DNA of 32,637 nucleotides from Blastocatellia bacterium (GTDB lineage Bacteria > Acidobacteriota > Blastocatellia > HR10 > J050). The translations under genes and the position numbers were made by a program. Location of the stretch: contig JANWZE010000043.1 in the NCBI GenBank assembly GCA_025054955.1, positions 1 through 32,637 on the forward strand. Reading direction: 5' to 3'. Shown one piece after another: positions 624 to 20,534 of this stretch (positions are counted from its first letter, which is position 1; the number at the start of each line of letters is the position of its first letter). The notes beneath the pieces are model-generated. The model had not been told where the DNA came from. It saw nothing but the letters and a program-made list of their open reading frames with translations, and did no database searches.

Positions 624-1031
624 ATGAGCGAAGCGACACAGACCACCACCCAGTACCCGCGCCAATACTTCGTTGACATGGTGACGCGGTATTTCCAGGC
701 CGTTGACAACCGCGATGTTGAGGCCACCGTTGATTGTTTCAATGAGGATGCCGTGTTGATTGTGCAGACCGACCATAAGCGGTTTGAAGGCAAGCAAGCC
801 ATTCGCGATATGTTCTCCGCGTTTTATGAGAACTCGACCTATGTCTATCACGAAGTGCTCAACTGGGTGGTCGAACCGGAGCGCAATAAATGTGCGACTG
901 AGCAAATTTATCGTGGCACGTTGAAGGATGGAACAGTCAACGACATGCACAATTGCAACTTCTTCGACTTCGAGAATGGCAAATTCAAGCGCGTGATCAT
1001 CTTCATGAGTGGACGCAATCCGCTGCAATGA
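624..1031 (+). CDS. SnoaL-like / nuclear transport factor 2 family protein
   Basis: A 135-residue protein of the size expected for a single cone-shaped alpha+beta NTF2/SnoaL domain. The N-terminal helix (VTRYFQAVDNRDVEATVDCF), then NEDAV, a RFEGKQAIRDMF segment, and the closing strands FFDFENGKFKRVIIFM are typical of the family. Family members act as small-molecule isomerases, cyclases or hydrolases, or as ligand-binding proteins, in the cytoplasm. The exact reaction cannot be read. A strong Shine-Dalgarno (AGGGAGG, 608-614) supports the ATG at 624. The stop is 31 bp before the FAD oxidoreductase gene, so the two are probably co-transcribed. It may process the same substrate as that flavoenzyme. 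Confidence 0.8.
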   Translation: MSEATQTTTQYPRQYFVDMVTRYFQAVDNRDVEATVDCFNEDAVLIVQTDHKRFEGKQAIRDMFSAFYENSTYVYHEVLNWVVEPERNKCATEQIYRGTLKDGTVNDMHNCNFFDFENGKFKRVIIFMSGRNPLQ

Positions 1032-2641: not shown

Positions 2642-2914
2642 CCCTGCTGCATTTCGCATACGGCGGCTAGCGAGGGCTGAATTCACAGCAGGCCGTTACA
2701 AACGAGCGGAGCAGCCAGCCAAGGTGGGCAGGCTTATGACTACCCCCGTTGTTCATAGAGGTGGGAGGTATAAGTCGCTTAATAGCGAGTCAACCAGATG
2801 TACGCCATCAACCATGAAAACAGTTGCCGCACGGCGACCGAGCCGCAAGGATGAGCCGAGATGCTCTCTGGCGTCTTGGTGCTAGCGGCTGTTTCCGAAA
2901 GGGAGGAGAAATTT
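2642..2914 (+). other. Long 5' leader of TonB receptor 1
   Basis: This is about 270 bp between the predicted promoter and the receptor start, without a convincing gene. It contains an imperfect hairpin around 2733-2772 (CTTAT paired with ATAAG, and CTACCCCC with GGTGGGAG), a small CGCT/AGCG hairpin just after it, and a GC-rich stretch at 2825-2890. It ends in a strong Shine-Dalgarno (GGGAGGAG, 2901-2908). I looked for cobalamin and c-di-GMP riboswitch landmarks and did not find them. A cis-regulatory RNA is possible but unproven. Confidence 0.35.
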
Positions 2915-5827: not shown

Positions 5828-5975
5828 CCCCTGTGGGGAAGTCCGAAGCACGAAACCCCAAGCCCCTGCGGGGAAATCCGAAATCCGAATATCGAAATCC
5901 GAAACGTTTCGGATTTGGGATTTCGTGCTTGGAATTTCCCTCGAAGAGGGCTTGGGATTTCCCTCGAAGAGGGCT
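5828..5975 (+). repeat. Palindromic intergenic repeat, copy 1
   Basis: Begins with CCCCTGTGGGG, repeats the CCCCTGCGGGG hairpin once more, and runs through ATCCGAA words to a perfect 14-bp palindrome CCGAAACGTTTCGG (5899-5912). It then returns with TTTCGTGCTTGGAATTTCCC and ends in two CCCTCGAAGAGGGCT units. It is preceded at 5804-5827 by TTCGTGATTCGTGATCCG words. The last GAGGG is 119 bp before the ATG of the alcohol dehydrogenase, the largest such distance of the seven copies. Confidence 0.85.
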
Positions 5976-6092
5976 ACGGTCCACGGACGAAGGGGGCGCT
6001 AGGCTGATCCGTGTCAGCGCAAGACGCGCAAGAAGCAGATGCTCGTTGATGCTCCGCAGACGAGCTTAAAGCGGCTTGATTCACCAGCCGTG

Positions 6093-7106
6093 ATGAAGGC
6101 AGCCGTCGTGCATCAGTTCAGCCGACCGTTGGTGGTGGAGCAAGTGCCTGTTCCATCACCGGCGAGTGGTGAGGTGCTGGTCAAGGTGGTGGCCAGCGGC
6201 GTCTGCCACACAGACTTGTCGGCGATTGATGGCTTGTGGCCGGTTAAACCCAGGTTGCCGTTCATCCCCGGTCATGAAATTGCCGGATATGTCGCAGCCG
6301 TTGGCTTGGGAGTGACTACGGTCAAAGAAGGCGACCGAGTCGGCGTAGCCTGGCTTCATTCAACGTGTGGTCGCTGTGATGAATGCCTCAGTGGACACGA
6401 GAACGTATGCGCGCATCAGCAAAACACCGGTTATTCGGTTGACGGCGGCTACGCTGAGTATGTCATCGCGCAGGCAGCTTACCTGGCGCATTTGCCGGCG
6501 GCGTTAGGATTTTTGGAATCGGCGCCGATTTTATGCGCCGGGCTGACGCCTTATCGGGGACTGAAAGAAACCGGTGCCAGGCCAGGCGAATGGGTCGTCA
6601 TATTGGGTGTTGGTGGCTTAGGTCATCTGGCCGTTCAATACGCCAAAGCTATGGGACTGCATGTCGTCGCTGTAGATGTGGTAGATGAGAAGCTGGCGAT
6701 GGCGCGTCAATTGGGCGCTGAGATCGCTATTCATGCGCTGCATCAAGACACCCGGCGTGAAGTGCGCCGACAGATTGGCGGGGCGCATGCTGTTCTAGTC
6801 ACGTCATCGTCGCTCGCTGCTTATGAACAAGCAATCCATCTGCTCAGGCGTCGTGGAACGTGTGTCTTTATTGGGCTGCCTCAGGGTGAGTGTCCGGTTT
6901 CGGTGCATACGATGGTGGCTAAGCAGCTCACGCTGAAAGGCTCGACCGTCGGCACGCGAAAGGATTTGCAGGAAGCGCTCCAGTTCGCTGCTGAAGGAAA
7001 AGTGCATGGTTTGATCGAAGTGCAGCCGCTTGAAGCGATCAACGACGTGCTTCAACGATTGAGAGCCGGTCAGATTCACGGGCGCGTCGTACTCCAGATG
7101 GCGTGA
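6093..7106 (+). CDS. Zinc-dependent alcohol dehydrogenase (MDR family)
   Basis: A 337-residue medium-chain dehydrogenase oxidising an alcohol to an aldehyde or ketone with NAD(P)+. Catalytic zinc ligands are Cys38 (GVCHTD), His61-Glu62 (PGHE) and Cys148. The structural zinc is held by Cys92, Cys95, Cys98 and Cys106 (CGRCDECLSGHENVC). The nucleotide-binding loop GVGGLG is at 172-177. Length and motifs match typical bacterial AdhP-like enzymes. The frame is open to an ATG at 6039, but family alignment favours MKAAVV at 6093. There is no good Shine-Dalgarno there, and a GTG lies one codon upstream. The PNPOx-like gene follows after 56 bp. Its real substrate is unknown. The surrounding redox genes suggest a catabolic role rather than ethanol turnover. 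Confidence 0.9.
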   Translation: MKAAVVHQFSRPLVVEQVPVPSPASGEVLVKVVASGVCHTDLSAIDGLWPVKPRLPFIPGHEIAGYVAAVGLGVTTVKEGDRVGVAWLHSTCGRCDECLSGHENVCAHQQNTGYSVDGGYAEYVIAQAAYLAHLPAALGFLESAPILCAGLTPYRGLKETGARPGEWVVILGVGGLGHLAVQYAKAMGLHVVAVDVVDEKLAMARQLGAEIAIHALHQDTRREVRRQIGGAHAVLVTSSSLAAYEQAIHLLRRRGTCVFIGLPQGECPVSVHTMVAKQLTLKGSTVGTRKDLQEALQFAAEGKVHGLIEVQPLEAINDVLQRLRAGQIHGRVVLQMA

Positions 7107-7162
7107 GGTCGAATCAGATAGAGAAAGGTCACGCTCCAGGCGTGACACAGAAGAGGGAAGTG

Positions 7163-7585
7163 ATGAGCGAGAAACTATCGGGCCAATGGGCAGTCTATGT
7201 TGGACAGCAGAAGGTGGGGCGTCTGTCAACGGTTGATCCCGATGGCACGCCGCATACCACGCCGGTGTACTATGCGCTGATGGATGGCGAACTCTATATG
7301 GGCACACAGCGAAACCGAAAGAAGTTTCGCAATATCCTCCGCAACCCCAAAGTGTGCTTCACGATTGATACCACAGAGCCAACCATCAAGGGGATTGTCA
7401 TTCAGGGACGGGCTGAGATTATCGAAGACCCGGTCATGCATGAGCGGTTTCGCCAAGCGTTGATCTATCGCTACTATGGGCATCCGGATCATCCCGCTTG
7501 GCAATATATCCAGAGCCTTGGTCAATCGGTGTTGCTGAAGATCGTTGCTGAGAAGATTTTTCATTGGGAGTTTCCTGCCGAGTGA
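7163..7585 (+). CDS. PNPOx-like split-barrel flavin/F420-binding protein
   Basis: A 140-residue protein of the pyridoxamine 5'-phosphate oxidase-like split-barrel superfamily. Characteristic segments are GRLSTVDPDGTPHTTPVYYALMDGELY near the N-terminus, TQRNRKKFRNILRNPKVCFTID in the middle, and GIVIQGRAEIIEDP afterwards. Members bind FMN, F420 or haem and reduce small molecules. True PNPOx activity is unlikely at this size. ATG 7163 is chosen because AGAGGGA stands 7-8 nt upstream and the domain begins immediately; an in-frame start at 7103 would overlap the dehydrogenase gene. Cofactor choice cannot be read. The LLM-type gene at 15702-16715 makes F420 one possibility. Confidence 0.75.
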   Translation: MSEKLSGQWAVYVGQQKVGRLSTVDPDGTPHTTPVYYALMDGELYMGTQRNRKKFRNILRNPKVCFTIDTTEPTIKGIVIQGRAEIIEDPVMHERFRQALIYRYYGHPDHPAWQYIQSLGQSVLLKIVAEKIFHWEFPAE

Positions 7586-7777: not shown

Positions 7778-8704
7778 ATGATCAGTGAAATCAGAACTGT
7801 GACGCTTCATGTGTCGCGGATGGATGAATCGCTGAGCTTCTACACGGCGTTCACCGGATGGCATCTGCGACATCGTTACCGAATGGGCGGCGAGCTGCTC
7901 AAGAAACACTGGGGCCTGCCGGATGAACGCGAGATTGAAGTGGCGTTGCTGTGCAATGAGCACAATCCGATGGCGGGCCAGCTTCGATTGATCCGGTGCG
8001 CCGGGGTTGAACCTCGCCCGATGCGAGACCATCAGCGTCCGTGGGATGTAGGGCTTTTTGGTGTCAATTTCATGGTTGCAGATATTCACGCTCGACTGGA
8101 TGAGTTGAAACGCCGCGGCGCTCGCTTGCCCTCGGATGGTCCTGTTTCATACACCGCTGGCGACCGGCTCGTCAAAGAAGCGATGGTGCGTGGTCCTGAC
8201 GAGGAGGCGATCATGCTCATTGAGGTCAATCCGCCGCGGCCGGAGCTGACACCGCCCGGTGAGGCCTACAGCGAAGTGGTGACCTGCCCGCAGGTCGTCC
8301 ATGATGTGGATCGAGCCGTCGCCTTTTATCGAGACGCGCTCGGCTTGAGCGTCTGGCTGCGCACAGAGTTGTGCATGCCGGCCTTGGATGCGCTGATTGG
8401 CTTGCCGCCGGGGACGAGGCTAGGGTTAGTGTTGCTCACATCGGGCGAGAGCGTGACCGGCAAGGTGGAATTACTGCACTACCCGGAGCTTGATTCTCGA
8501 CCATCAGGCGGGTTGCCGCGCACCGGTTATTGTATGCTGAGTTTCACGGCGGATGACCTCGATCACCTGGCGCACCGGCTCGCGGGCGAAGGCGTGCAGA
8601 TTGTGGCCGCGCCGGAGGTTGTGGATTTCGGCCCAGAAGGCTCGTTCACTGCGATGAGCGTGCGGTCACCTGACGGCTTGTTGCACGAGTTCATTCAGCG
8701 TTGA
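7778..8704 (+). CDS. Two-domain VOC (glyoxalase / extradiol dioxygenase fold) protein 1
   Basis: A 308-residue cytoplasmic protein with two vicinal-oxygen-chelate units, about residues 5-150 and 165-308. Each shows the DxxxSLSFY / DRAVAFYRDALGL opening and an acidic-ending last strand (IMLIEV, LLHEFIQ). Family members are metal-dependent lyases, isomerases or dioxygenases. By eye, the usual first metal ligand (His at the start of the first strand of each module) is replaced by Thr in both units, so ordinary metal chemistry is doubtful. The C-terminal half is clearly paralogous to the protein at 16989 (shared GLPxGxxLxxVLL, GKxxLLxY and PDGxxxEFxQR patterns). Start supported by GAGG 9 nt upstream. 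Confidence 0.8.
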   Translation: MISEIRTVTLHVSRMDESLSFYTAFTGWHLRHRYRMGGELLKKHWGLPDEREIEVALLCNEHNPMAGQLRLIRCAGVEPRPMRDHQRPWDVGLFGVNFMVADIHARLDELKRRGARLPSDGPVSYTAGDRLVKEAMVRGPDEEAIMLIEVNPPRPELTPPGEAYSEVVTCPQVVHDVDRAVAFYRDALGLSVWLRTELCMPALDALIGLPPGTRLGLVLLTSGESVTGKVELLHYPELDSRPSGGLPRTGYCMLSFTADDLDHLAHRLAGEGVQIVAAPEVVDFGPEGSFTAMSVRSPDGLLHEFIQR

Positions 8705-8713
8705 GTGCGTGGT

Positions 8714-8796
8714 GGGGAAATCCGAAATCCCAAATCTGAAATCCCAAGCGTTTTGAATTTCGGATTTTGTGCTTGGGATTTCCCTCGGAAAGGGCT
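8714..8796 (+). repeat. Palindromic intergenic repeat, copy 2, abutting a start codon
   Basis: A short, diverged copy: GGGGAAATCCGAAATCCC, a degenerate centre (AAGCGTTTTGAATTTCGG), then the right end CCCTCGGAAAGGGCT. The SDR's ATG at 8797 is the very next base, so the repeat constitutes the whole immediate leader. AAGGG, 2 nt before the ATG, is the only purine-rich candidate for ribosome binding. Confidence 0.8.
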
Positions 8797-9510
8797 ATGT
8801 CCACCGTTTTGGTCACTGGATCAAATAGAGGCTTAGGGCTGGAATTCGTCCGCCAGTATGCTGCTGACAACTGGCGTGTTCATGCCTGTTGCCGAAATCT
8901 GCAGGCGGCCGCAGAGTTGCAGGCGCTAGCAAAATCGTATCAACCGTTGATTGAGATTCATGAGCTGGACGTAACCGATTTCGCCGCGATCGACGCGCTG
9001 GCCGATAGGCTGCGGGGCACGGCAATTGATGTCTTGATCAACAACGCTGGCGTGTATGGCCCGAAAGTTCGCTCAGAGAATGATCCGCGACAACAGTTCG
9101 GCATGATGGACTATGACATTTGGTCAATGGTAATACGGACCAATACCATGGGGCCGCTCAAAATGGCCGAGGCGTTCATCGAGCACGTGGCCATGAGCGA
9201 GCAAAAAAAGCTGGTCTATATTTCCAGTTCATTAGGCTCGATCGCCAGAACCGATGGTGGAACCTATGCCTATCGTTCCAGCAAAGCGGCGGGCAATATG
9301 GTGATGGCGACGCTGGCTCGCGATGTCGCGTCGCGCGGTATCAGTGTGTTGATTTTCTGTCCGGGTTGGGTCAAGACAGCGATGGGCGGAAAGCACGCGC
9401 TGCTGGAGGCGTCCGACAGTGTGCGCCACGTGAGGCAGTTGATTGCTGAGGCGACAATCGAGCAATCGGGGAGGTTCATTCACTATGATGGCGAGCCGCT
9501 GCCGTGGTAA
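8797..9510 (+). CDS. Short-chain dehydrogenase/reductase (C-factor-like SDR)
   Basis: A 237-residue NAD(P)-dependent oxidoreductase of classical SDR design. The cofactor loop TGSNRGLG is at 7-14, LINNAG at 80-85, the catalytic Ser in YISSSLGS (143-145), and Tyr159 and Lys163 in YAYRSSK. PGWVKTAMGG closes the site. It resembles the CsgA/C-factor-like subgroup but the substrate is open. The frame extends ten codons upstream into the repeat, which would give a repeat-encoded N-terminus. ATG 8797 is chosen because the Rossmann fold starts at residue 4. Translation initiation therefore depends on the end of palindromic repeat copy 2. Confidence 0.88.
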   Translation: MSTVLVTGSNRGLGLEFVRQYAADNWRVHACCRNLQAAAELQALAKSYQPLIEIHELDVTDFAAIDALADRLRGTAIDVLINNAGVYGPKVRSENDPRQQFGMMDYDIWSMVIRTNTMGPLKMAEAFIEHVAMSEQKKLVYISSSLGSIARTDGGTYAYRSSKAAGNMVMATLARDVASRGISVLIFCPGWVKTAMGGKHALLEASDSVRHVRQLIAEATIEQSGRFIHYDGEPLPW

Positions 9511-9643
9511 GTCGGGCGCTCGGGTGACGTCGGACAGGCCGAAGATAGTGGGTCAACGGACTCAGGGATGTCGCCTGCAAGGCCAGCAGCAATAGACCTA
9601 ATATTGGTGGCGTGGTTCACGAGCCTTGTTGCGGAGATGAGCG

Positions 9644-10087
9644 ATGACTGAACGGGAACGATTGCAAGCGATTGCTGGTGTTTGGTTGGGCACGTACACG
9701 CATCTGACGCCTGATGGCACAGTGTTGGATCGGTATACCAGTCGGCAGGAGTGCCGGTTGGAAGGCGACCAGTGGTATGAACGCATCATTTACAGAGTTG
9801 GCACAGATGAGCAGCAAACGTTCGATTTTCGCGCGCGTTTCGTGGGCGAGGAGTTGGTGTTTGAAGACGCTCAATTGCATGGTCAGACAACTCGCGTCAG
9901 CGATGACGTTTCGATCTTTGATTACTACTGGAAGGACCGGCCTCACATCCGCATCGTTGAGACGATTGTGGTCAGTCGGCCTGATCGAAAATCGCGCATC
10001 TGGCAAACGTTTGAGCACGGCCAGTTGGTCAAGGTGACCATCATTGACGAGCGCCGAAGCGATGAGCAGCCAGCCATCTGGTATTAA
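9644..10087 (+). CDS. Unrecognised small beta-rich protein, possibly calycin/lipocalin-like
   Basis: A 147-residue protein without signal peptide or membrane segment. It begins with GVWLGTYTHLTPDGTVLDR and continues as alternating strands with many Tyr, Trp and charged residues (WYERIIYRV, FDFRARFVGEELVFEDAQLHG, SIFDYYWKD). This pattern recalls lipocalin/fatty-acid-binding beta barrels; that is only an impression. The coding call rests on length, sensible composition and a tight 14-bp spacing to the next gene, with which it probably forms an operon. It could bind the pathway's hydrophobic substrate. Confidence 0.65.
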   Translation: MTERERLQAIAGVWLGTYTHLTPDGTVLDRYTSRQECRLEGDQWYERIIYRVGTDEQQTFDFRARFVGEELVFEDAQLHGQTTRVSDDVSIFDYYWKDRPHIRIVETIVVSRPDRKSRIWQTFEHGQLVKVTIIDERRSDEQPAIWY

Positions 10088-10101
10088 GGGCGGAAGATTG
10101 C

Positions 10102-10791
10102 ATGGGCCAATTTCAGCATCTATATGGCAAGCTCTCCTACCGCCAGAAAGCGACAGGTCGCGAGCGGGGGCGCGAGTTTTGGTCATTGACGCGCAATCGC
10201 GATGGAACACGCACGATGAGGTGTTTATCCATGACCGATGACTCCGCGTTTGTTCGTGATGCAACCTATACGCTTGGTCTTGATCATCGGCCCGCTGATG
10301 TGTTTGTTCGCTTGCAGGTCGCTGATCAATTTGTTGGCGCTGGTTATTTTCGTGTTGACGGAGATCAGCTTCATGTCGTCGCCGATGGCGCTGCGTTCGG
10401 TCGCGCTGTTCAGACGCTACAGGTGCCCCGGCTGTTTCACATTGAGACCCATGCGGTGATGTTGGATGGTTGGTTCTGTTGGTGTCTCGACCTGTCGCAA
10501 CCCGGCGAGCAGCAGGTTGTCCACTACAATACTTCGACGCGGTGGAATGGCATCGATGGCCCGCTTGGGCGATTGGAAGCGATCTCTGCAACCATCATCG
10601 GCGATGAGCAAATTCGCGTGCCGGCGGGCACATTTCAGGCGACCCACTTTCGCCTCACATCCGGCGAGAAAAGCATTGCTCCAGCCGACCTGTGGGTGAC
10701 CGGCTCCGACCATCTGTTAGTGAAGTACGATTGGAATGAATTCGGTCTGGAGTACATCCTTGAATCACTGGCTCCCGAAGGCGCGTCCTAG
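10102..10791 (+). CDS. Conserved-looking hypothetical protein, possibly DUF3108/DUF6134-like
   Basis: A 229-residue protein, beta-rich, lacking a signal peptide. The C-terminal pattern (IRVPAGTFQATHFRLTSG, then PADLWVTGSDHLLVKYDW) resembles the end of DUF3108-type proteins, where a VPAGxFxxxH segment is followed by a W-V strand. That match is from memory and only moderate. GGAAG lies 5-6 nt before ATG 10102. It starts 14 bp after the preceding small protein and is probably co-translated with it. No catalytic motif was recognised. Confidence 0.65.
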   Translation: MGQFQHLYGKLSYRQKATGRERGREFWSLTRNRDGTRTMRCLSMTDDSAFVRDATYTLGLDHRPADVFVRLQVADQFVGAGYFRVDGDQLHVVADGAAFGRAVQTLQVPRLFHIETHAVMLDGWFCWCLDLSQPGEQQVVHYNTSTRWNGIDGPLGRLEAISATIIGDEQIRVPAGTFQATHFRLTSGEKSIAPADLWVTGSDHLLVKYDWNEFGLEYILESLAPEGAS

Positions 10792-10840
10792 AAGAGTGGT
10801 TCATATCGTCGGTGAGGACGCGGGAGAAAAGATGAAGAAC

Positions 10841-10911
10841 AAGCACAGATTCACTGCAAGCACAGATTCACTGATTGACCAATTGAAAATCTCTTCGTCA
10901 GTGAATCTGTG
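10841..10911. repeat. CACAGATTCACTG direct and inverted repeat (hairpin)
   Basis: A 17-bp unit (AAGCACAGATTCACTG plus one base) is tandemly duplicated at 10841-10857 and 10858-10874. The second copy forms a perfect 14-bp inverted repeat with 10898-10911 (TCAGTGAATCTGTG) around a 23-nt loop. It sits just before the Sel1-like gene. It may act as a transcript-stabilising or terminating hairpin; the following TCTGCGTTTTC is a weak T-tract. Confidence 0.7.
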
Positions 10912-10932
10912 TCTGCGTTTTCGGAGTAGAAA

Positions 10933-11547
10933 ATGAGCAAACTGCATTTTGTGTTGATGTCTCTATTTCTGTTGTGTTGCGCTGAGAGGATAAGCGTTTA
11001 TGGGCAGGTGACCGAATGTGACCGGCTGGCCGCGCATCCGTCTGATCCAGACAAGCTGACCGAGGGCGTAGCCACAGCGACGCTGATGCAGGCGCTGGCG
11101 CCGGCCATTGCGGCGTGTGAGCAAGCGGTGACCGCCGAGCCTGACAATCCTCGTCTGAACTATCAACTGGGGCGCGTCTTGTTCTACAACAAAGAATATG
11201 CTCGTGGCTTCCGCTATGTGGAGAAAGCCGCTGCGCTGGGGTATCGTCAAGCTCAATTCGTGGCCGGTTTGATTTACGCTGACGGACAAGAGGGATTCAT
11301 GAAGCCAGACCATTGCCGTTCGCTTCCGCTTTGGCAACAGGCTGCCGATCGCGGCCACTATGCCGCCGAAGTGAGCTTGAGCCGGAATTACCTGCGCGGC
11401 GTCTATGATCGGTGTGATGCCCAGTTGAAGCGGGAGGCAATTGTCGGGTATCTGCAGTCAGCCAGCAAGAAGACGAAGAGCTATTATGAAAAGCTGTTAG
11501 TCGAATACCTGCTTGAGCAAGCAGAGAAGAGCAAACGCAAGCGATGA
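10933..11547 (+). CDS. Exported Sel1-like / TPR-like repeat protein
   Basis: A 204-residue protein with an N-terminal signal peptide (hydrophobic LHFVLMSLFLLCC, likely cleavage near VYG-QV), so it is periplasmic or an anchored envelope protein. After it come helical repeats: EPDNPRLNYQLGRVLFYNKEYARGFRYVEKAAALGYRQAQFVAGLIYADG and PLWQQAADRGHYAAEVSLSRNYLRG. These match the alternating Ala/Gly/Leu spacing of Sel1/TPR units. Such repeats usually mediate protein-protein contacts. The C-terminus is very basic (KSKRKR). Its stop overlaps the start of the exported VOC gene (ATGA at 11544-11547), implying translational coupling and possibly a shared periplasmic function. Confidence 0.75.
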   Translation: MSKLHFVLMSLFLLCCAERISVYGQVTECDRLAAHPSDPDKLTEGVATATLMQALAPAIAACEQAVTAEPDNPRLNYQLGRVLFYNKEYARGFRYVEKAAALGYRQAQFVAGLIYADGQEGFMKPDHCRSLPLWQQAADRGHYAAEVSLSRNYLRGVYDRCDAQLKREAIVGYLQSASKKTKSYYEKLLVEYLLEQAEKSKRKR

Positions 11548-12650
11548 GGCTCATCAGTATGAGATGGCGCGCGATTGTGTTACTCATTGGGATAACGATG
11601 TGGGCCATGCCCACGCAGGCGGATCGCCTGACGATCGGCGGCATCTACGAAGTCTGCATTGGCGTGACCGACCCGATTCCTCAGCTTCGATATTGGGAGC
11701 TGTTTGGCTATCGCATTGGGGTGAGTGGCCACTTCAGCGCCTCGCAGGCGAAAGCATTGTACGGCGTGGATTCTGCCCTACGCTCCATCCGGCTCTATCA
11801 TCAGGAGGCTGATCATGGGTTGGTGCGGTTGATGGTGTGGGAGCGGCCGGTCAATGAAGGTCTTGGCCTGGCGAAGATGTTAGCGCCGGGAAGCCGGTGG
11901 ACGTCTACGCTGACCAAGGATGTGTTGGACCTCTTCAACCATGCTGAAGCGGCTGAGCGGGCTGGCTATCCAATTAAAATTGTGCCGCCTCAGTATTCAG
12001 AGATTTACGATTTTGGTAAAGCTGAACCGTTTGTCGGAAAACTGATGGGTGTGCGCGAGCTGATCGTTTTGCAGCCACTGACGCGAAATATGTTCTTCCA
12101 ACGATTTGGTTACGATTTGCCGCATTATGGCCGAGTCAATGAAGCCGCCAAATTCCGCGCCAGCCAGATCACGCATGTTGGTTTGGTCTTTCAGAGTGAC
12201 AATCCCGATGACGCTACGTTTTATCGTGACGTGCTCGGCCTGAAGCCCCAGAGCCTGGAACGGCATGTAACCTACCACACGCTGGATGAATCCTCACGAC
12301 GACTCTACGGCATGCAGCCAGGCGATCAGTATTTTGGCTCAACGTTTGATAATCCGCGCTCGGGATCACGGCCTGAAGAAGCCATCTCAGGGCGACTCCT
12401 GCTCAGGCGAATTCCAACCGCTGTCAAGGAAGAAAACCTCATGCACCGATCCAAGCCAGGCTGTTTAGGCTTATCGCTCTACACCTATCGAGTCGCTCCG
12501 CTTGAGTCCTATCACGAACGTGTCAAAGCCAGTCGCGCCTCCGGCGTCACGCCGATCATGGTCAACGAATTCGGCGAACGCAGTTTCTCGTTCGTGGCGC
12601 CGGATGGACACTTCTGGACGCTGATAGAGACTGAGTCTACGGCGAGATAG
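11544..12650 (+). CDS. Exported two-domain VOC protein 2
   Basis: A 368-residue VOC-superfamily protein that, unlike its three neighbours, begins with an export signal (WRAIVLLIGITMWAMPTQA, cleavage near TQA-DR), pointing to the periplasm. Module 1 runs about 30-180, module 2 about 205-365 (ITHVGLVFQSDN...ATFYRDVLGL, ending FVAPDGHFWTLIETE). By eye, module 2 keeps the opening His and a terminal Glu that usually bind metal, and module 1 has Glu at the opening position. A metal-dependent reaction is therefore more plausible here than in the other three. The ATG overlaps the previous stop; an internal ATG at 11559 would still leave a complete signal. The reaction is unknown. Confidence 0.75.
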   Translation: MRLISMRWRAIVLLIGITMWAMPTQADRLTIGGIYEVCIGVTDPIPQLRYWELFGYRIGVSGHFSASQAKALYGVDSALRSIRLYHQEADHGLVRLMVWERPVNEGLGLAKMLAPGSRWTSTLTKDVLDLFNHAEAAERAGYPIKIVPPQYSEIYDFGKAEPFVGKLMGVRELIVLQPLTRNMFFQRFGYDLPHYGRVNEAAKFRASQITHVGLVFQSDNPDDATFYRDVLGLKPQSLERHVTYHTLDESSRRLYGMQPGDQYFGSTFDNPRSGSRPEEAISGRLLLRRIPTAVKEENLMHRSKPGCLGLSLYTYRVAPLESYHERVKASRASGVTPIMVNEFGERSFSFVAPDGHFWTLIETESTAR

Positions 12651-12677
12651 TTTCGGGCGATTGATTGCCATGCGGAA

Positions 12678-12829
12678 CCCCTGCGGGGAAATCCGAAATC
12701 CGAAGCACGAAATCCCAAGCCCTCTTCGAGGGAAATCCGAAATCCGAAATCCGAAATCCGAAACGTTCGTATTTGGGGTTTCGTGCTTCGGATTTCCCCG
12801 CAGGGGCTTGGGATTTCCCTCGAAGAGGG
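12678..12829 (+). repeat. Palindromic intergenic repeat, copy 3 (most symmetric)
   Basis: The left arm reads CCCCTGCGGGG ... GCACGAAATCCCAAG and then CCCTCTTCGAGGG. The right arm returns TTTCGTGC, CCCCGCAGGGG and CCCTCGAAGAGGG. Both hairpin modules therefore occur on both arms, in opposite orientation, and could fold into one long hairpin. The centre is degenerate (CCGAAACGTTCG). It sits between two VOC genes. The right end is 60 bp before the chosen start of VOC 3. Confidence 0.85.
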
Positions 12830-12889
12830 TGTGGTGGTTTTCGTAGTCAAATCGTTTTCATCATGTCATGATGAGTGAGGTACTCTTCA

Positions 12890-13804
12890 ATGCTCGAACC
12901 CCTGCTGAGATTCATCATGATCGTCACGATCGCGGCGCACGACTTGGAAGCCGTCGAACGAGCATACCGTCAGTATTTCAACTACCAGGTCGTGGCTCGC
13001 GGCAAAGTCACCGCAGCTTTAGCCAGAGCGTGGGGCGCGCCGAACGTAGTTGGTCGGCGTTATCTCTTGTTGCAGCCGGAGAGCGGCCAGCCGGTCTACT
13101 TGCGTTTCATTGAGATGCCGCTGGTGCCCGGCTATGAGCCGCTGCGCACATTCGGATGGAATTGCACAGAAATCCTCGTCAAGGATGTTGACCGGCTGGC
13201 GCATCAATTGGAGGGGTCGCCTTTTCGCATCATTGGGCCGCCGAGAAATCTATCTTCGGACGAGAACATTCGCGCAATGCAAGTGCTTGGCCCGGCCAAT
13301 GAGGTGCTGTATCTGACGCGGATCATTCCCGGCGCGTCAGGCTTCAATCTAGGCAGCGCGCAGACGGACGTAGATCGCGTCTTCATCGTGGTGCTGGGCG
13401 TCAAGGATATTGAGCAAGCAACACGGTTCTATCGTGAGCAGTTCAACATGCCGACAACGAAGCCGATGGGCGTGCGTATGTCAGCTTTATCTAAAGCGCA
13501 CGGGCTTGATCCTGAGCAATTACATCCGCTCGCGATTGTGCAATTCGTCAAAGATTTTTTGATCGAAGTTGACCAGTATCCTGCGTCGGCGACAGAGCGG
13601 CCACAGCGAGCAGGTGATATGCCGCCGGGCCTGGCGATGGTTTCGTTCATTGTGAACTCGCTCGATTCGTTGCGCGTCAAGTTTGTGGCTCCGCCGAAGA
13701 AGATCAATACAGCCCCATACGATGGGCGGCGCGTTGCTGTCACGGTTGGACCATCGGGTGAATGGATCGAGCTGGTTGAAGATCGCCGGTTCAAGTCCGA
13801 ATGA
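12890..13804 (+). CDS. Two-domain VOC protein 3
   Basis: A 304-residue cytoplasmic VOC protein. Module 1 (about 8-145) opens with IVTIAAHDLEAVERAYRQYF and module 2 (about 160-300) with VFIVVLGVKDIEQATRFYREQF, ending GPSGEWIELVED. At the position of the first metal ligand both modules have Ile in my hand alignment, so metal binding looks lost. The frame opens with a GTG at 12875, but ATG 12890 has GAGG (12877-12880) at a normal 9-nt spacing. Flanked on both sides by palindromic repeats (copies 3 and 4), like a cassette. Function unknown; it may bind or isomerise a pathway intermediate. Confidence 0.75.
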   Translation: MLEPLLRFIMIVTIAAHDLEAVERAYRQYFNYQVVARGKVTAALARAWGAPNVVGRRYLLLQPESGQPVYLRFIEMPLVPGYEPLRTFGWNCTEILVKDVDRLAHQLEGSPFRIIGPPRNLSSDENIRAMQVLGPANEVLYLTRIIPGASGFNLGSAQTDVDRVFIVVLGVKDIEQATRFYREQFNMPTTKPMGVRMSALSKAHGLDPEQLHPLAIVQFVKDFLIEVDQYPASATERPQRAGDMPPGLAMVSFIVNSLDSLRVKFVAPPKKINTAPYDGRRVAVTVGPSGEWIELVEDRRFKSE

Positions 13805-13832
13805 AGCTCAGTAGCATGCCCAAGCGCCGAAG

Positions 13833-13920
13833 CCCCTGCGGGCAAATTCCAAGCGCGAAACCCGAAATCCGAAACGTTTCGGATTTCGGATTTGGAATTT
13901 CGGATTTCCCTCGAAGAGGG
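13833..13920 (+). repeat. Palindromic intergenic repeat, copy 4, abutting a start codon
   Basis: CCCCTGCGGGC, AAGCGCGAAACCC, a perfect CCGAAACGTTTCGG palindrome (13869-13882), TTTCGGATTTGGAATTTCGG and a terminal CCCTCGAAGAGGG. Only TT separates it from ATG 13923 of the first membrane protein. Confidence 0.85.
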
Positions 13921-13922
13921 TT

Positions 13923-14633
13923 ATGGAGCTTCTCTATGACATTCTGAAGGCGATTCACATTCTGATGGCGGTTCTGTGGTTAGGAACCGACATCGGGACA
14001 TTTGCTTCGTTTCGGCGTATGCGCGACGCGACGCTCTCGGTTTCAACGCGGCTTTCGATGAGTCACCTTTCAGACTTGCTCGATATGGGGCCGCGCTCAG
14101 CATTGGTGATTCTGTTGATGCTGGGCTTGTACATGACGCATCTGGGTGAGTTCGGCTTGAGCGGCCCGACAGGCAGTCTGCTGGCGCAAGTGAGCGCCTT
14201 GATCGGCTTGTTGTGGCTTGCTGGTGTATGGCATCAATACTGGGTGACGCATCCGCCTGCCGGTCAGACGCGGTCGCCTGCGCATGTTCGGTTTCAACGC
14301 GCCTTTCGCACGTTTGATATTTACTGGCGCGTTGGCGTATCGCTGGCGCTGGCGCTGCTTGCGGTTGCTTCATTGGCCGGCGCGGGGCCGTTCCGCTCAG
14401 CGTGGCTGGCGTGGAAGTTAATCCTGTTTGCCGGTATTGTGGCGTGTGGCGTTGGCATCCGCATCGTGATTCCCCGCATTGTCGCCTGCATGAGCGACAT
14501 TGCTGCCAATGGTTCGTCGCCCGAACGTGAAGCGAGGTTGACACAGGTGGCGCGACCGGCGCAGATGTTCGTATGGAGCATCTGGTTACTACTGATCTTG
14601 ATCAGTTGGTTGGCTGTGGCCAAGCCGGAATGA
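13923..14633 (+). CDS. Six-helix integral membrane protein A (DUF2269/CopD-like)
   Basis: A 236-residue inner-membrane protein with about six hydrophobic segments: roughly 8-28, 59-75, 86-103, 137-155, 160-183 and 214-232. It opens with LKAIHILMAVLWLGTDIG, a His-containing first helix reminiscent of DUF2269/CopD-like proteins, in which such His residues can bind haem or metal. The segment WKLILFAGIVACGVGIRIVI is shared with the next gene (WKSLIFAGVVACGLWARFAL), so the two are paralogues. Start 13923 is preceded only by the repeat's GAGGG, 2 nt away. Its exact role (electron transfer, transport) cannot be told. Confidence 0.75.
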   Translation: MELLYDILKAIHILMAVLWLGTDIGTFASFRRMRDATLSVSTRLSMSHLSDLLDMGPRSALVILLMLGLYMTHLGEFGLSGPTGSLLAQVSALIGLLWLAGVWHQYWVTHPPAGQTRSPAHVRFQRAFRTFDIYWRVGVSLALALLAVASLAGAGPFRSAWLAWKLILFAGIVACGVGIRIVIPRIVACMSDIAANGSSPEREARLTQVARPAQMFVWSIWLLLILISWLAVAKPE

Positions 14634-14724
14634 TGCAACGCAGCAGCCAGGCCTCGGGCATCTTCGCGGCCTGCTCTCGTCCTAGTGGTGGCCAAGCCGG
14701 AATGATGCAACGCAGCAGCCAGGC
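14616..14724. repeat. 37-bp perfect direct repeat over a gene end
   Basis: Bases 14616-14652 and 14688-14724 are identical over 37 bp (offset 72 bp). The first copy includes the last six codons and the TGA stop of the membrane protein A gene; the second lies downstream as a non-coding remnant. It looks like a local duplication. A GGGGGTAAACCCCC hairpin follows at 14738-14751. Confidence 0.85.
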
Positions 14725-14758
14725 GCCATGAGGCCCTGGGGGTAAACCCCCGCCGGGA

Positions 14759-14903
14759 GAAATCCGAAATTCGAAGCACGAAATCCCAAGCCCCTGCGGG
14801 GAAATCCGAAGCACGAAACCCCAAATCCGAAACGTTTCGGATTTCGGATTTAGGATTTCGGATTTCCCTCGAAGAGGGCTTGGGCTTTCCCTCGAAGAGG
14901 GCT
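14759..14903 (+). repeat. Palindromic intergenic repeat, copy 5, abutting a start codon
   Basis: Starts GAAATCCGAAATTCGAAGCACG, contains CCCCTGCGGGG, a perfect CCGAAACGTTTCGG palindrome (14827-14840), and ends in two CCCTCGAAGAGGGCT units. The final GAGGG stands 3 nt before ATG 14905 of membrane protein B. Confidence 0.85.
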
Positions 14904-14904
14904 G

Positions 14905-15612
14905 ATGTTTGATTCATTTGTTTTGCTCAAGACCGCTCACATTCTGCTGCTGGCCACCTGGTTGGGCGTGGACATTGGCGTGCTGGCCTGCGGTTGGTTG
15001 ATTGGTCGGCATCAATCGTCTGTTGAAACGCGCGCGCAATTCGCTCGTTTGATGGTCTGGCTGGGGCTGTGGCCGGCGCTGAGTCTGGTGTTGACGGTGC
15101 TGGTCGCATTGGCGCTTGTATTCGTGGGACGTTTGGGGTTCGTGGGATGGCCTGCGGATACAACCGCTCAATGGATGCAGTGGCTGGCTGCGCTGACGTT
15201 TCTCTGGTTGATTGCAACTGTGACCGCGTTTGCTCTCAACGTTCGTGATGCGGGCGTCGCGTGGTTGCGAACGTGCCAGCGCGGTTTCATCTGGTTCGAT
15301 ACATTGCTTCGTTGCGCTGTGGTGATTGGCTTTGCTTGGCTCGCGCTGAGAGCTTGGCAGGACGAAACACTTCTTTTTCTCGACTACTTGCGATGGAAAT
15401 CATTGATCTTTGCCGGTGTGGTCGCCTGCGGCCTCTGGGCGCGATTTGCGTTAAGAGAATTCCTACCGACGCTCTCAATCATTGCGCAACAAGGCTCAAC
15501 AGAGGAGCTGGAAAAGCGACTCACTCGCCAGATGCGAGCAGCGACTGTTCCTATGCTGATCAGTTGGGCTGGCCTCGTGGCCAATATCTTTATCGCTGTG
15601 ATCCAATTTTGA
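14905..15612 (+). CDS. Six-helix integral membrane protein B, paralogue of A
   Basis: A 235-residue inner-membrane protein with the same plan as its upstream neighbour: FVLLKTAHILLLATWLGVDIG at the N-terminus, several further hydrophobic helices, and WKSLIFAGVVACGLWARF at a matching position. Both keep the first-helix His and the W-L-G-x-D-I-G signature, which suggests a shared haem, metal or ligand site. Divergence is high, so the duplication is old. The start is set by the short spacing to repeat copy 5 and by the immediate start of helix 1. They may form a heterodimeric membrane complex serving one of the redox enzymes; that is inference. Confidence 0.75.
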   Translation: MFDSFVLLKTAHILLLATWLGVDIGVLACGWLIGRHQSSVETRAQFARLMVWLGLWPALSLVLTVLVALALVFVGRLGFVGWPADTTAQWMQWLAALTFLWLIATVTAFALNVRDAGVAWLRTCQRGFIWFDTLLRCAVVIGFAWLALRAWQDETLLFLDYLRWKSLIFAGVVACGLWARFALREFLPTLSIIAQQGSTEELEKRLTRQMRAATVPMLISWAGLVANIFIAVIQF

Positions 15613-15701
15613 GGCTCGACACAAAGAAGCTGTTCATCGCGCCGGCAGCGACATTCAGAAACGATGAGACTGGAGCGCCGGCGGGAACGCTTGGAGCACA
15701 T

Positions 15702-16715
15702 TTAATGTCTCAGTTGGGGCAGCACGTGTTCGCCAAGCAGTGTCACCGTGCGCATGGCCAGCGCCAGCGGCATATCGCCCGGCGAGATGCGCAGGTTGAA
15801 ATGGGTCACGCCGGCAGCTTGATACTTTCGGATGCTTTCTAAAACTGTCTGTGGGCTGCCGCAGAAGTAGATGTCGTCGCCGACGGCTTCGAATAGATCA
15901 ACACGGCGCGGATCGAGCGGTTGGCCGCTTGCGTCGTGGATCATGCCGAATTGAGCGTAGAAATGGAGCACCTGACTGATATAGGGTCTTCCTTCGTGTC
16001 GAGCTTGCTCGTCGGTCTCGGCCACGAATGCCGTGCGGTTCATCGCCACGACTGCCGATGCCGGGTCTCGACCCTGCGCTGCGAGAAAACCTCGATAGCG
16101 TTCGATCTGCGTCTTGATCAGTTGGAAGTGGTATTGTGTAGCTGCATACCAGCCGTCGGCCAGCGTGGCAGCGCGCCCGACCGAGCGGCGAATTTTTCCT
16201 CCAACCCAGATCGGCGGGCCGCCAGGTTGCATCGGAGCGGGATAGAGGCGGCCCTTGACGTTGAAATGGGTGCCATGAAACCCGTCGCCGCCTGCCCACA
16301 GCGTTTTCAACAGCGTGAGCGCTTCATCCATCCGCGAGCCAACTTCGTGGTATGGGATGCCGTAACGTTTCATCAACGCGGGCGAGCCAGCTCCGACGCC
16401 CAGCACGAATCGGCCGCCCGACAAGTGATCAAGCAACGCGACGTCGTAGGCTAGATGCAGTGGATGCCAGAGCGGCAAGAGCAGCACGCCGGTGCCCAGT
16501 CGTAGTCGCGTGCTGCGGGCCAGCGATGCCAGCACCAGCAAAGGAGATGGCACGTGCCCTGGCTCTGGAACCGATGGACGATTTTCGCCAGCCCAGACCG
16601 ATTCGAATCCCAGTTGTTCGGCTAGAGTGAGCAATTGGACGTACTCGTCTAATCGCTGATGAAGTGGTTTGGAGACGCTCCAAAAATCCAATGCCAGTCC
16701 GAAGTGAATGCTCAT
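15702..16715 (-). CDS. LLM-class (luciferase-like) flavin/F420-dependent oxidoreductase
   Basis: A 337-residue TIM-barrel enzyme of the luciferase-like monooxygenase family, encoded opposite to its neighbours. Typical signatures: FGLALDFW at strand 1, LAEQLGFESVWAGEN, ARSTRLRLGTGVLLLPLWHP, LSGGRFVLGVGAGSP, and GGPPIWVGGKIRRSVGRAATLADGWY. Members reduce or oxygenate substrates using F420H2 or FMNH2 in the cytoplasm. The frame runs back into the intergenic repeat to 17090, but that extension is repeat translation; ATG at 16715, preceded by GGAGAG, is preferred. It converges with membrane protein B (89-bp gap, no clear terminator) and diverges from VOC 4 across repeat copy 6. Confidence 0.85.
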   Translation of the reverse strand: MSIHFGLALDFWSVSKPLHQRLDEYVQLLTLAEQLGFESVWAGENRPSVPEPGHVPSPLLVLASLARSTRLRLGTGVLLLPLWHPLHLAYDVALLDHLSGGRFVLGVGAGSPALMKRYGIPYHEVGSRMDEALTLLKTLWAGGDGFHGTHFNVKGRLYPAPMQPGGPPIWVGGKIRRSVGRAATLADGWYAATQYHFQLIKTQIERYRGFLAAQGRDPASAVVAMNRTAFVAETDEQARHEGRPYISQVLHFYAQFGMIHDASGQPLDPRRVDLFEAVGDDIYFCGSPQTVLESIRKYQAAGVTHFNLRISPGDMPLALAMRTVTLLGEHVLPQLRH

Positions 16716-16745
16716 GACCTGCTCTCCGATTCGTGATTCGTGGCA

Positions 16746-16779
16746 GTGAAGCCACAGATTACACAGAGTAGCACAGAAT
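16746..16779. repeat. CACAG-word intergenic repeat, copy 2
   Basis: GAAGCCACAGATTACACAG...GCACAGA, 29/31 identical to the segment at 7681-7711. It is inserted between two TTCGTGATTCGTGATCCG-type stretches (16728-16741 and 16779-16799), just upstream of palindromic repeat copy 6. Confidence 0.6.
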
Positions 16780-16799
16780 TCGTGATTAGTGATCCGTAA

Positions 16800-16972
16800 C
16801 CCCTGTGTGGAAATCCGAAGCACGAAACCCGAAATTCGAAACGTTTGGGATTTCGGATTTAGGATTTCGGATTTCCCTCGAAGAGGGCTGTGGAAATCCG
16901 AAGCACGAAACCCGAAATTCGAAACGTTTGGGATCTCGGATTTAGGATTTCGGATTTCCCTCGAAGAGGGCT
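16800..16972 (+). repeat. Palindromic intergenic repeat, copy 6, tandemly duplicated 83-bp unit
   Basis: An 83-bp unit (16806-16888) is repeated immediately at 16889-16971 with one difference (T at 16852, C at 16935). Each unit contains GCACGAAACCC, a degenerate centre CGAAACGTTTGGG and a terminal CCCTCGAAGAGGG. It lies in the divergent space between the minus-strand LLM gene and VOC 4 and is oriented towards VOC 4, whose ATG is 18 nt beyond the last GAGGG and has its own GGAGG. Confidence 0.9.
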
Positions 16973-16988
16973 TCGTGGAGGTCGTTTC

Positions 16989-17939
16989 ATGCTTAGTCAA
17001 ATTCGTTTCACCACGCTCAGCGTTGCCGATCTGGAGCGTGGCCTGACGTTGTTTCGCGATGTCATGGGTATGGAGGTGATTGCGCGACAAGAACTCTTCG
17101 GCCCAGAAATTGAAAAGTTGTGGGGACTGCCGACGTTCATGTCAGCTCAATCGGTCATTTTGGGAAAGCCTGGCGTCTCCGGTTCACGCATACGGCTTGT
17201 GCGATTCGAGCCAGTCTCAGAGGTGATCATCCGTGAGAAAGCAGAGCCGTGGGATACAGGCGCAATCAAGATTGTGGATTTTATGGTGAGCGATTTTCAG
17301 CAAGCGGAGCAAGCGTTGCTGAGTCATGGCTGGCAATGGCGCACGTCACCGCAGCGGTACGCATTGCCCAACAATGAGGGTGAATCGCTTGAAGGGCACA
17401 TCAATGGGCCTGACGGGACGATACTGGGCGTGATTCAATTGTTTGGCGTGTCGCGCTCCAAATATGTGGAGGTGGCCGATGAGACGTTGTTCAGCGAGAT
17501 GGCGACGACGTCATATCTTGTGCCGGACCTCAATCAAGCATTGGCGTTCTATAGCGGCGCGCTAGGCCTGCGGGTGACCGATGACGTGACGATCAATCAA
17601 GCTGAGCTTCAGCGGTTGATCGGCCTGCCGACAGGGGTCAGTCTCAGAATGGTGTTGCTGGGATCAGAGCAGGGCAAGTCAGGTAAAATCGGATTGCTTC
17701 AGTACCAAGGCATCACGGGCGCTTCATTGGCTGAGATTTCCAAGCCGCCACATCGAGGTGCCCTGCTGATTTCGTTTGAAACTGATGCGCTTGATCACGT
17801 GTACGACACGTTGAAACAGAGCGGTGCACAAATCATCTGCTCGCCGGTTCAAGTGGAGATTGACCCTTATGGCCCTGTCAGCGCCATGACGGCCAAGGCG
17901 CCCGATGGTGTGATGTTAGAATTTTTCCAGCGTCAGTAA
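16989..17939 (+). CDS. Two-domain VOC protein 4
   Basis: A 316-residue cytoplasmic VOC protein. Module 1 (about 4-160) opens IRFTTLSVADLERGLTLF; module 2 (about 170-316) opens SYLVPDLNQALAFYSGALGL and ends APDGVMLEFFQRQ. It is a clear paralogue of VOC 1, with the same order of motifs and nearly the same length. At the expected first metal-ligand position it has Phe (module 1) and Thr (module 2). The frame extends to 16890 through the repeat, but GGAGG at 16977-16981 fixes ATG 16989. Only 7 bp separate its stop from the MFS gene, so the two are likely one operon. Exact function unknown. Confidence 0.8.
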   Translation: MLSQIRFTTLSVADLERGLTLFRDVMGMEVIARQELFGPEIEKLWGLPTFMSAQSVILGKPGVSGSRIRLVRFEPVSEVIIREKAEPWDTGAIKIVDFMVSDFQQAEQALLSHGWQWRTSPQRYALPNNEGESLEGHINGPDGTILGVIQLFGVSRSKYVEVADETLFSEMATTSYLVPDLNQALAFYSGALGLRVTDDVTINQAELQRLIGLPTGVSLRMVLLGSEQGKSGKIGLLQYQGITGASLAEISKPPHRGALLISFETDALDHVYDTLKQSGAQIICSPVQVEIDPYGPVSAMTAKAPDGVMLEFFQRQ

Positions 17940-17946: not shown

Positions 17947-19293
17947 ATGTCAACACTGCCTGAACATGCCGTGACGACCCGCCCGCCGTCATCTGGATGG
18001 ACGCCCATGTGGTCACAGATTCGCGGATATCCGCTGCGGGTGTTCTTCATCTGTCTGATTGGCGTGAGCCTGGAGAATATGGACCAGGCGTTATTCCAGT
18101 TTGTGCTGCCGCAGATCGTCCGTGAGTTTGGCTGGAGCGTGGCGCAAGTTGGATGGTACACAGCGTTGGTATTTGTGTTGGCCGGTTCAGGCATTGCTGC
18201 GTTGGGCGTGTTGACCGATCGCATCGGCCGAAAAGCGGTCTTCAGTTTATCCATGCTGGTCGGCTCATTATTTGTGACGGCGATGTACTGGGCGCATCAC
18301 ACGGTCACGTTGCTGATGCTGCGCACGCTGGGATTTGCGATGGGCGGCATTCAGTCGCCTGTTGTGGGAACGATTGTGGTGGAAGAGTCGCCGCCGCGTT
18401 ATCGCGGGTTGCTATCAGGCATCTTGCAAATTGGGTATCCGCTGGGCTGGTTTTTGGCGTCGCAATGTTCACTGCTGGTGCTTTGGTTGGTCGGGCAGCA
18501 AGCGTGGGAAGCGGGCGCGTGGCGCCGTGTGTTTTTCGTCAGTTTGCTAAGCATTCCCTACATGTGGGTCATCCACAAATACCTGAATGAGACAAAAGCC
18601 TTTCTAGCGGCCAAGGCGCGTCGCGCGGCCTCCGTTGCGGACCCGGTTGGCGGCAATCCGGCTGAGCGTCCGGCGCGATGGTCGGACCTGTTCAGTCCAG
18701 AGCTGCGATTTAAGACGGCGATGCTATTTTTCGGCGAATTCTTTCACGTGTTCGCGTATGGGACGACGATTTTGCTGAATTTGTACTTCCAAAAAGCGCG
18801 CGGGTGGAGTCCGGCTGAGGCCATTGCGCTGGTGGGTTTGTCGTATGGAGTCGGCTCGATTGGTTACATCGTGGCGGCCATCGTGGGCGAGTTCTTCATC
18901 AAGCGGCGGAACGTCATTATCCTGTGGGCGTGGTTAGGATCGTTGGCGTTTGCTTCGATGATCTGGCTGACTGATCAGTGGTGGACAACGGCTGTGAGCT
19001 ACTGCCTGATGACGATCTTCTTCTATGGCACGACGGCGGTGAAGTTCACGTTCATTGCTGAGAATTTTCCTACGCGGCTGCGGGCCACTGGTGTCACCTT
19101 TGCTGGCTCGCTGGCCGTCAACTTGGGCATTGCGTTTGGGCCGCTGGCGCTCACGCAGGTGACGACATGGCTAGGGGGCGACCTCAACGCGTGGAATATC
19201 GCCTACACGGTGTGCGGCATCCTCGCGATTTTCGTCTCTGGCATGTTCTTCCTCACGCTTTCGGCCGACCCGACTGGCCTCGACGAGGGATAA
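17947..19293 (+). CDS. MFS transporter (AAHS/sugar-porter-like)
   Basis: A 448-residue inner-membrane carrier with about twelve hydrophobic helices. It shows the loop 2-3 motif GVLTDRIGRKAV and the helix 4-5 segment VVEESPPRYRGLLSGILQIGYPLGWFLA, which recall the MFS groups that take up aromatic acids and other organic acids. The central loop (about 215-245) is basic and Pro-rich. It follows VOC 4 by 7 bp without a clear ribosome-binding site, implying coupling; an internal ATG at 18007 is an alternative. Probable role: movement of the pathway substrate or an intermediate across the inner membrane. Direction and ligand are not determinable. Confidence 0.85.
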   Translation: MSTLPEHAVTTRPPSSGWTPMWSQIRGYPLRVFFICLIGVSLENMDQALFQFVLPQIVREFGWSVAQVGWYTALVFVLAGSGIAALGVLTDRIGRKAVFSLSMLVGSLFVTAMYWAHHTVTLLMLRTLGFAMGGIQSPVVGTIVVEESPPRYRGLLSGILQIGYPLGWFLASQCSLLVLWLVGQQAWEAGAWRRVFFVSLLSIPYMWVIHKYLNETKAFLAAKARRAASVADPVGGNPAERPARWSDLFSPELRFKTAMLFFGEFFHVFAYGTTILLNLYFQKARGWSPAEAIALVGLSYGVGSIGYIVAAIVGEFFIKRRNVIILWAWLGSLAFASMIWLTDQWWTTAVSYCLMTIFFYGTTAVKFTFIAENFPTRLRATGVTFAGSLAVNLGIAFGPLALTQVTTWLGGDLNAWNIAYTVCGILAIFVSGMFFLTLSADPTGLDEG

Positions 19294-20400: not shown

Positions 20401-20534
20401 CTCGCATGTCACAATGCTTCTTGGTGTTGGCATCGGCAACATTTTGCGGATTTGCCTGTCATTTGTCCAGTCATCGAATCACTGGCGTTCAACGCCCCCG
20501 TGGTTTGTATGAAAGAAAAATGGGAGGAATTGGT

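Follow-up and report, generated by a model that had tools for sequence, protein, structure and literature searches.

The window analysed here, one entire contig of 32,637 bases from a genome of 4.69 Mb, encodes four tandem VOC proteins, and there is strong evidence, from alignment and structure models, that none of them would hold a canonical metal site in either pocket. A first-pass annotation had counted three such proteins from two positions in each. For VOC1, VOC3 and VOC4 that view stands, and the number rises to four once all eight ligand positions are scored. What could such proteins do in a cell? In our reading they are probably metal-independent enzymes of an uncharacterised catabolic pathway.

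Results

Genes in the window

The four VOC genes all lie on the plus strand with intact frames, where they had been annotated before, and their preferred starts are 7778, 11544, 12890 and 16989 (Table 1). The frame of VOC3 is open from a GTG at 12875, with the ATG at 12890 favoured; that of VOC4 is open from a GTG at 16890, and its ATG at 16989 lines up with the start of VOC1. The start of VOC2exp and the stop of the TPR gene ahead of it share 4 bases. For HyuA and HyuB the closest NCBIfam models are caprolactamase CapA and CapB, with scores below cut-off.

Table 1. Features of the window; G with a number denotes another genome.
Feature	Position	Strand	Remarks
SnoaL_2/NTF2-like protein	624..1031	+	in G001 and G002 its relatives lie near a VOC gene
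FAD_binding_2 flavoprotein (flavocytochrome c / KstD-like)	1063..2496	+	81% identity to counterpart in the syntenic G004 cluster
TonB-dependent receptor 1	2861..5794	+	79% identity, G004 cluster
PNPOx split-barrel protein (F420/flavin type)	7103..7585	+	75% identity, G004 cluster
VOC1	7778..8704	+	308 aa; tandem four-module VOC; canonical metal site apparently absent
DUF3598 lipocalin-like protein	9644..10087	+	64% identity, G004 cluster
hyp10102	10102..10791	+	no Pfam match; recurrent VOC neighbour (G004 61%, G311 59%, G419 60%)
VOC2exp	11544..12650	+	368 aa; exported tandem VOC; N-terminal signal peptide (by inspection)
VOC3	12890..13804	+	tandem VOC; canonical metal site apparently absent
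VOC4	16989..17939	+	tandem VOC; canonical metal site apparently absent
MFS transporter	17947..19293	+	directly 3' of VOC4
TonB-dependent receptor 2	20406..23918	+	65-66% identity in G001 and G002, beside HyuA/HyuB
HyuA	24006-26060	+	ATP-dependent cyclic-amide hydrolase type
HyuB	26139-27929	+	ATP-dependent cyclic-amide hydrolase type
Isochorismatase-fold amidase-like	28179-28811	+	
Class III CoA-transferase	28830-30071	+	
HMG-CoA-lyase-like	30219-31091	+	
Carbon-nitrogen hydrolase	31581..32441	+	

Family assignment and fold

The earlier assignment of all four as two-domain VOC proteins was borne out by the intact reading frames, by PF00903 and by a full-length profile match. PF00903 scores above its cut-off for VOC1 (7e-19) and VOC4 (9e-16) and slightly below it for VOC2exp (0.0016) and VOC3 (0.0013), and the VOC2exp profile matches the VOC1/3/4 profile over the full length (hhalign 99.4%, E 1.5e-21). 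Structure models were made for VOC1 and VOC2exp; for VOC3 and VOC4 the placement comes from alignment. The AlphaFold model of VOC1 was built from only 7 sequences (pLDDT 77.5, pTM 0.80), that of VOC2exp from 46 (pLDDT 91.5, pTM 0.88). Both show four beta-alpha-beta-beta-beta modules and have the VOC fold when compared with solved VOC structures (Z 19-26). The closest solved folds in VIA-align are maize GlxI, GLOD4 and PcpA, with Z of 22.9-25.8 for VOC1 and 18.8-22.1 for VOC2exp; an MhqO-like protein is also among the best matches. A search of solved-structure sequences with the profiles gave remote VOC relatives only, and a scan of the genome contigs with VOC3 alone gave no match. Scores fell far short of the equivalog model of glyoxalase I (TIGR00068, at least 120 bits), being 29.9 bits for VOC1, 27.2 for VOC4 and 13.4 for VOC3, and likewise of that of methylmalonyl-CoA epimerase (TIGR03081, at least 114.95 bits), being 27.2 for VOC1 and 28.3 for VOC4.

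How are the modules grouped into sites? The alignment of a single methylmalonyl-CoA epimerase chain to VOC1 runs from residue 1 to 308 and takes in about 130 residues, which are modules 1 and 4; E. coli glyoxalase I instead matches modules 3 and 4. Because the epimerase chains align over modules 1 and 4, the grouping is fixed as swapped. Judged by models and alignment, all four proteins share this swapped tandem arrangement, in which modules 1 and 4 form site A and modules 2 and 3 form site B; maize glyoxalase I and PcpA are built in the same way. A non-swapped reading, in which E231 and E304 of VOC1 domain 2 share one site, was rejected because of the epimerase chain and also because the ligands of a sister clade described below, four in all, are distributed across both domains.

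Metal-ligand positions

Eight canonical ligand positions were scored in each protein with the two AlphaFold models, an internal control and, as ruler, E. coli glyoxalase I, whose ligands are H5, E56, H74 and E122. Domain-wise and full-length alignments differed by no more than one column, at the His position of the second module. The glyoxalase I sequence used is identical to 1f9z. Results are given in Table 2.

Table 2. Residues at the canonical ligand positions and at those of the PcpA-type triad.
Protein	Site A	Site B	PcpA-type triad
VOC1	T7, R70, C252, E304	T169, E231, G95/V96, M146	T7, C252, E304
VOC3	I, R, A, E	I, E, C/T, Y	I, A, E
VOC4	F, R, L, E	T, G, I/V, G	F, L, E
VOC2exp	E36, R95, L312, T359	H211, L286, W119/T120, F184	E36, L312, T359

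The first-strand residues which had been read by hand (T7 and T169 in VOC1, Ile and Ile in VOC3, Phe and Thr in VOC4, E36 and H211 in VOC2exp) are correct by alignment. The proposal that the exported VOC2exp retains a metal site did not hold up: E36 and H211 fall in different half-sites, and the remaining six canonical positions are lost, the residues there being W/T, L/K/Y and F, and R, L and T. Among relatives, E36 is kept in 52 of 54 and H211 in all 54; H86, H91 and H133 are not kept throughout. In VOC1, VOC3, VOC4 and their orthologues, a site has a single canonical carboxylate or none. No half-site of the four proteins has more than one canonical ligand, so by sequence and model they would not count as VOC proteins in the metalloenzyme sense, and none has a His at the second-module His position. 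The 2-His-1-Glu triad of PcpA type (D1 strand 1, module 4 strand 1, last strand) was likewise found in none of the four. A rescue of the metal site through a shifted alignment had been set beforehand as the refuting observation; it was looked for in the models, against glyoxalase I and by comparison with the sister clade, and no site was rescued. VOC2exp E172 was considered as the canonical last-strand ligand and rejected, since in the model it lies within strand 3 of module 2 (169-176); strand 4 of that module is 181-188, and the invariant E172 corresponds to VOC1 E134.

The same picture is found in 30 proteins of the VOC1/3/4-type clades. His occupies the second-module His column in 0/30, D2 strand 1 in 1/30 and D1 strand 1 in 3/30, and a complete site B (H-E-H-E) is kept in none. 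At the D1 strand-4 ligand position 22 of the 30 have Arg, and R95 is invariant in the VOC2exp family. This Arg in site A (R70 in VOC1, R95 in VOC2exp) occurs together with a Glu, which comes from the last strand in VOC1 (E304) and from the first strand in VOC2exp (E36). From the strand positions in the models we infer the pairs R70/E304 and R95/E36. Neither the VOC1 nor the VOC3 clade has a His or Cys at any invariant position, and the small VOC4 clade has one such His (H137); the invariant acids of the VOC1 clade are D90, D102, E134, D141, E231 and E304. In VOC2exp, 24 positions are strictly invariant in 46 sequences with identity down to 28%, and R83, R95, R118, E172, H211, E342 and E345 are among them.

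Sister clade and evolution

When 396 genomes from the phylum were searched with the profile, a further group of tandem VOC proteins came up with lower scores. In this sister clade the full site B His-Glu-His-Glu is present in 17/17 cleanly aligned Acidobacteriota rows, and one cyanobacterial member keeps it as well. Set against the 30 proteins above, this takes the ligand loss beyond chance. The ligands are laid out as His in D2 strand 1, Glu in D2 strand 4, His in module 2 strand 1 and Glu in the D1 last strand. An exception is found in two proteins of a related clade, from G419 and G022, which have His, His and Glu/Asp at the site A positions; going by these residues, some cousins of this type may hold metal in site A.

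A tree of 58 sequences gives support of 100/100 to the sister clade and likewise to the VOC2exp clade. VOC1 falls with its counterpart from G004 (99/88), VOC3 with proteins of G004, G052 and G311 (100/99), and VOC4 with proteins of G419 and G438 (99/84); the deep forks are weakly supported (16/55). The window proteins are thus paralogues, as had been supposed, but not a recent family, since each of VOC1, VOC3 and VOC4 falls, with strong support, among proteins from other genomes. On this sequence evidence, all four are ancient, separately maintained lineages with orthologues in other genomes. The ligand loss is clade-wide in relatives of other families and phyla, which argues against decay of one locus. 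Relatives of VOC2exp are found in Cyanobacteriota, Acidobacteriota, Bacteroidota and Gammaproteobacteria. Judged by eye, signal peptides stand at the start of the Acidobacteriota forms and of most from Bacteroidota, and most cyanobacterial forms have none.

Gene neighbourhood in other genomes

The VOC lineages are linked to a conserved gene set of HyuA/HyuB, amidase, CoA-transferase and HMG-CoA-lyase-like genes, and the setting in a catabolic cluster suggested by the first-pass annotation is supported by these neighbours. The conserved cluster also has a CN-hydrolase, a TonB receptor and an MFS transporter. In G004, which belongs to another family of the same order, VOC2exp, hyp10102, VOC1, flavoprotein, PNPOx, TonB1, DUF3598, VOC3 and MFS lie in one stretch at 42-81% identity to the window, with 42-64% for the VOC orthologues. 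HyuA, HyuB, isochorismatase, CoA-transferase and HMGL, as a full set or in part, are neighbours of VOC genes in G001, G002, G058, G090 and G419, and in G016 they are neighbours of VOC2exp. A close HyuB occurs in 7 of 10 carriers of the VOC clade, compared with 13 of 396 genomes overall (hypergeometric 7e-10, kinship ignored).

Further VOC neighbours in relatives are CpeT/CpcT, DUF1838, a DUF4437 cupin, SnoaL, amidohydrolase and CN-hydrolase. In the literature on CpeT, DUF1838, DUF3598, DUF4437, GLOD4 and tetrapyrrole/hydantoinase, no account of this pathway was found.

Discussion

Why would a fold known for its metal site be kept without the metal? One explanation is that the VOC proteins are binders or carriers, which by analogy might pass a hydrophobic or reactive substrate or intermediate among receptor, periplasm, MFS transporter and enzymes. 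Metal-free VOC binders have precedent in the phenazine shuttle EhpR and the mitomycin binder MRD, and for EhpR, which is without catalytic and metal residues, a hand-over of its ligand to an MFS pump was proposed (PMC3175449). VOC4 adjoins an MFS gene here, as VOC genes do in G022, G052 and G419, and a lipocalin-like DUF3598 is present in the cluster and CpeT in relatives. However, VOC2exp has invariant charged residues of pocket type, and so does the VOC1 clade with E134, E231 and E304; there are several distinct VOC lineages per cluster, and EhpR and MRD are single-domain dimers. A carrier role is the main alternative but rather unlikely. The strict conservation of charged residues favours enzymes over loose binders.

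It would be more doubtful still that a metal is bound at a non-canonical site, either outside the eight classical positions or made from E36, D90, H91, H211, E342 and E345 of VOC2exp. VOC2exp does retain several near-invariant acids and one His, and the related clade with His, His and Glu/Asp at the site A positions gives this idea some ground, but the VOC1 and VOC3 clades lack any invariant His or Cys, the VOC4 clade has H137 alone, H211 and E36 lie in separate half-sites, and H86, H91 and H133 are not universal in relatives, all of which speaks against it. Are the proteins then simply decayed, non-functional remnants of metalloenzymes? The ligands are gone, but the frames are intact, the G004 orthologues keep their identity level and the same neighbours, and dozens of residues are invariant, so that this explanation is hardly credible.

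If the VOC proteins are metal-independent enzymes, as we favour, their catalysis and substrate are matters of inference. They would handle successive intermediates of the pathway without metal, likely at upstream steps, and one of them, VOC2exp, would work in the periplasm. The chemistry might be that of an isomerase, lyase or hydrolase, run by acid-base groups of the former metal pocket such as, perhaps, the paired Arg and Glu. HyuA/HyuB would then open a cyclic amide or imide, the isochorismatase-fold amidase would remove ammonia, and the resulting acid would be activated with CoA by the CoA-transferase and cleaved by the HMGL-like enzyme. HyuA/HyuB and an isochorismatase-fold amidase are found together in the creatinine/N-methylhydantoin pathway. 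That pathway was considered for the cluster and rejected, as it leaves the CoA-transferase and HMGL unexplained. A more specific scenario can be offered only tentatively: tandem VOC enzymes of several lineages per genome, with Arg-Glu in place of metal in one pocket, might perform metal-free steps in an undescribed catabolic pathway that finishes with ring opening by HyuA/HyuB, hydrolysis of the amide, CoA transfer and lyase cleavage, and whose substrate is perhaps a pyrrole, lactam or maleimide, for example a breakdown product of tetrapyrrole. A substrate of tetrapyrrole type is possible because of the lipocalin-like companions CpeT and DUF3598 and because the exported family is common in cyanobacteria.

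Among VOC proteins, small antibiotic binders are the main known case of metal loss, and here it is conserved in several ancient tandem lineages and in one catabolic gene set. The ligand-keeping sister clade provides a natural control for how a metalloenzyme fold works in metabolism without metal. The cluster also marks an uncharacterised degradation pathway in Acidobacteriota, parts of which recur in Bacteroidota and Cyanobacteriota.

Comparison with other VOC proteins

Maize-type monomeric glyoxalase I (PDB 5d7z, 6bnx) has the same tandem four-module layout and is matched over the whole length, with Z 25.8 and 2.8 A over 256 residues for VOC1 and Z 21.5 and 3.4 A over 262 for VOC2exp. The window proteins differ from it in having none of the His ligands, in an identity of 14-17% and in a score of 29.9 against the equivalog cut-off of 120 bits. 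The same tandem arrangement is found in PcpA-type 2,6-dichloro-p-hydroquinone 1,2-dioxygenase (4huz), an enzyme of degradation pathways, and in the MhqO-like putative dioxygenase (3oaj). The PcpA type is the best VIA match for VOC2exp (Z 22.1, 3.2 A, 266 residues), but the two His of its iron site are absent from VOC1, VOC3 and VOC4, and identity is 8-13%. Human GLOD4 (PDB 3zi1, 9csj) shares the tandem VOC fold (Z 23.9 for VOC1) at 12-14% identity, and our literature search found no paper on its mechanism.

By sequence comparison the ligand loss is like that in EhpR and mitomycin-binding MRD, VOC-fold proteins which have lost metal and catalytic residues. However, these are single domains working as dimers in antibiotic resistance, while the window proteins are tandem, pathway-linked and furnished with invariant charged residues. 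The sister clade (L015, L016, L133-L150, L161) is of the same phylum, tandem, similar in length and found by the same profile; it differs in its complete site B and stands as a separate clade at full support.

Relatives of the tandem VOC proteins and their gene neighbourhoods

In one related VOC clade (L155 and L163), the positions of site A, the pocket formed by modules 1 and 4, hold His, His and Glu/Asp. The clade possibly has a metal site there, in the pocket opposite to that of the sister clade, which keeps His-Glu-His-Glu in site B (modules 2 and 3). Locus L043 of genome G311 (4354-7141) has a head-to-tail row of three distinct VOC genes of the metal-less tandem type. One of them encodes a protein with a signal peptide, and the trio adjoins an aldehyde dehydrogenase gene and a relative of hyp10102. 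The hyp10102 family recurs adjoining VOC genes in G004, G311 and G419, and is a candidate component of the pathway.

Coordinates of the features discussed
Feature	Location	Remark
L155	G419:C32:53594-54481	related VOC clade
L163	G022:C70:3075-3971	related VOC clade
hyp10102 family	window 10102-10791	no Pfam match
Membrane protein pair, consecutive	window 13923-14633 and 14905-15612	between VOC3 and VOC4
HyuA-HyuB-isochorismatase-CoA-transferase-HMGL gene set	window 24006-31091	

Relatives of the exported VOC protein are common in cyanobacteria (among loci L051-L104), mostly lack a signal peptide there, and are often encoded next to a DUF1838 gene; a described function for this pair was looked for and not found. 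In bacteria that do not photosynthesise (L066, L067, L077, L096, L100), CpeT/CpcT-type (phycobiliprotein-lyase-like) genes occur close to the gene for the exported VOC protein.

The two membrane proteins are alike in size and opening motif, and one matches DUF2269. All or some of the HyuA-HyuB set is conserved in families far apart within the phylum (G016, G058, G090, G419, G434). The set appears to be a module, so far uncharacterised, for the catabolism of a cyclic amide or imide.
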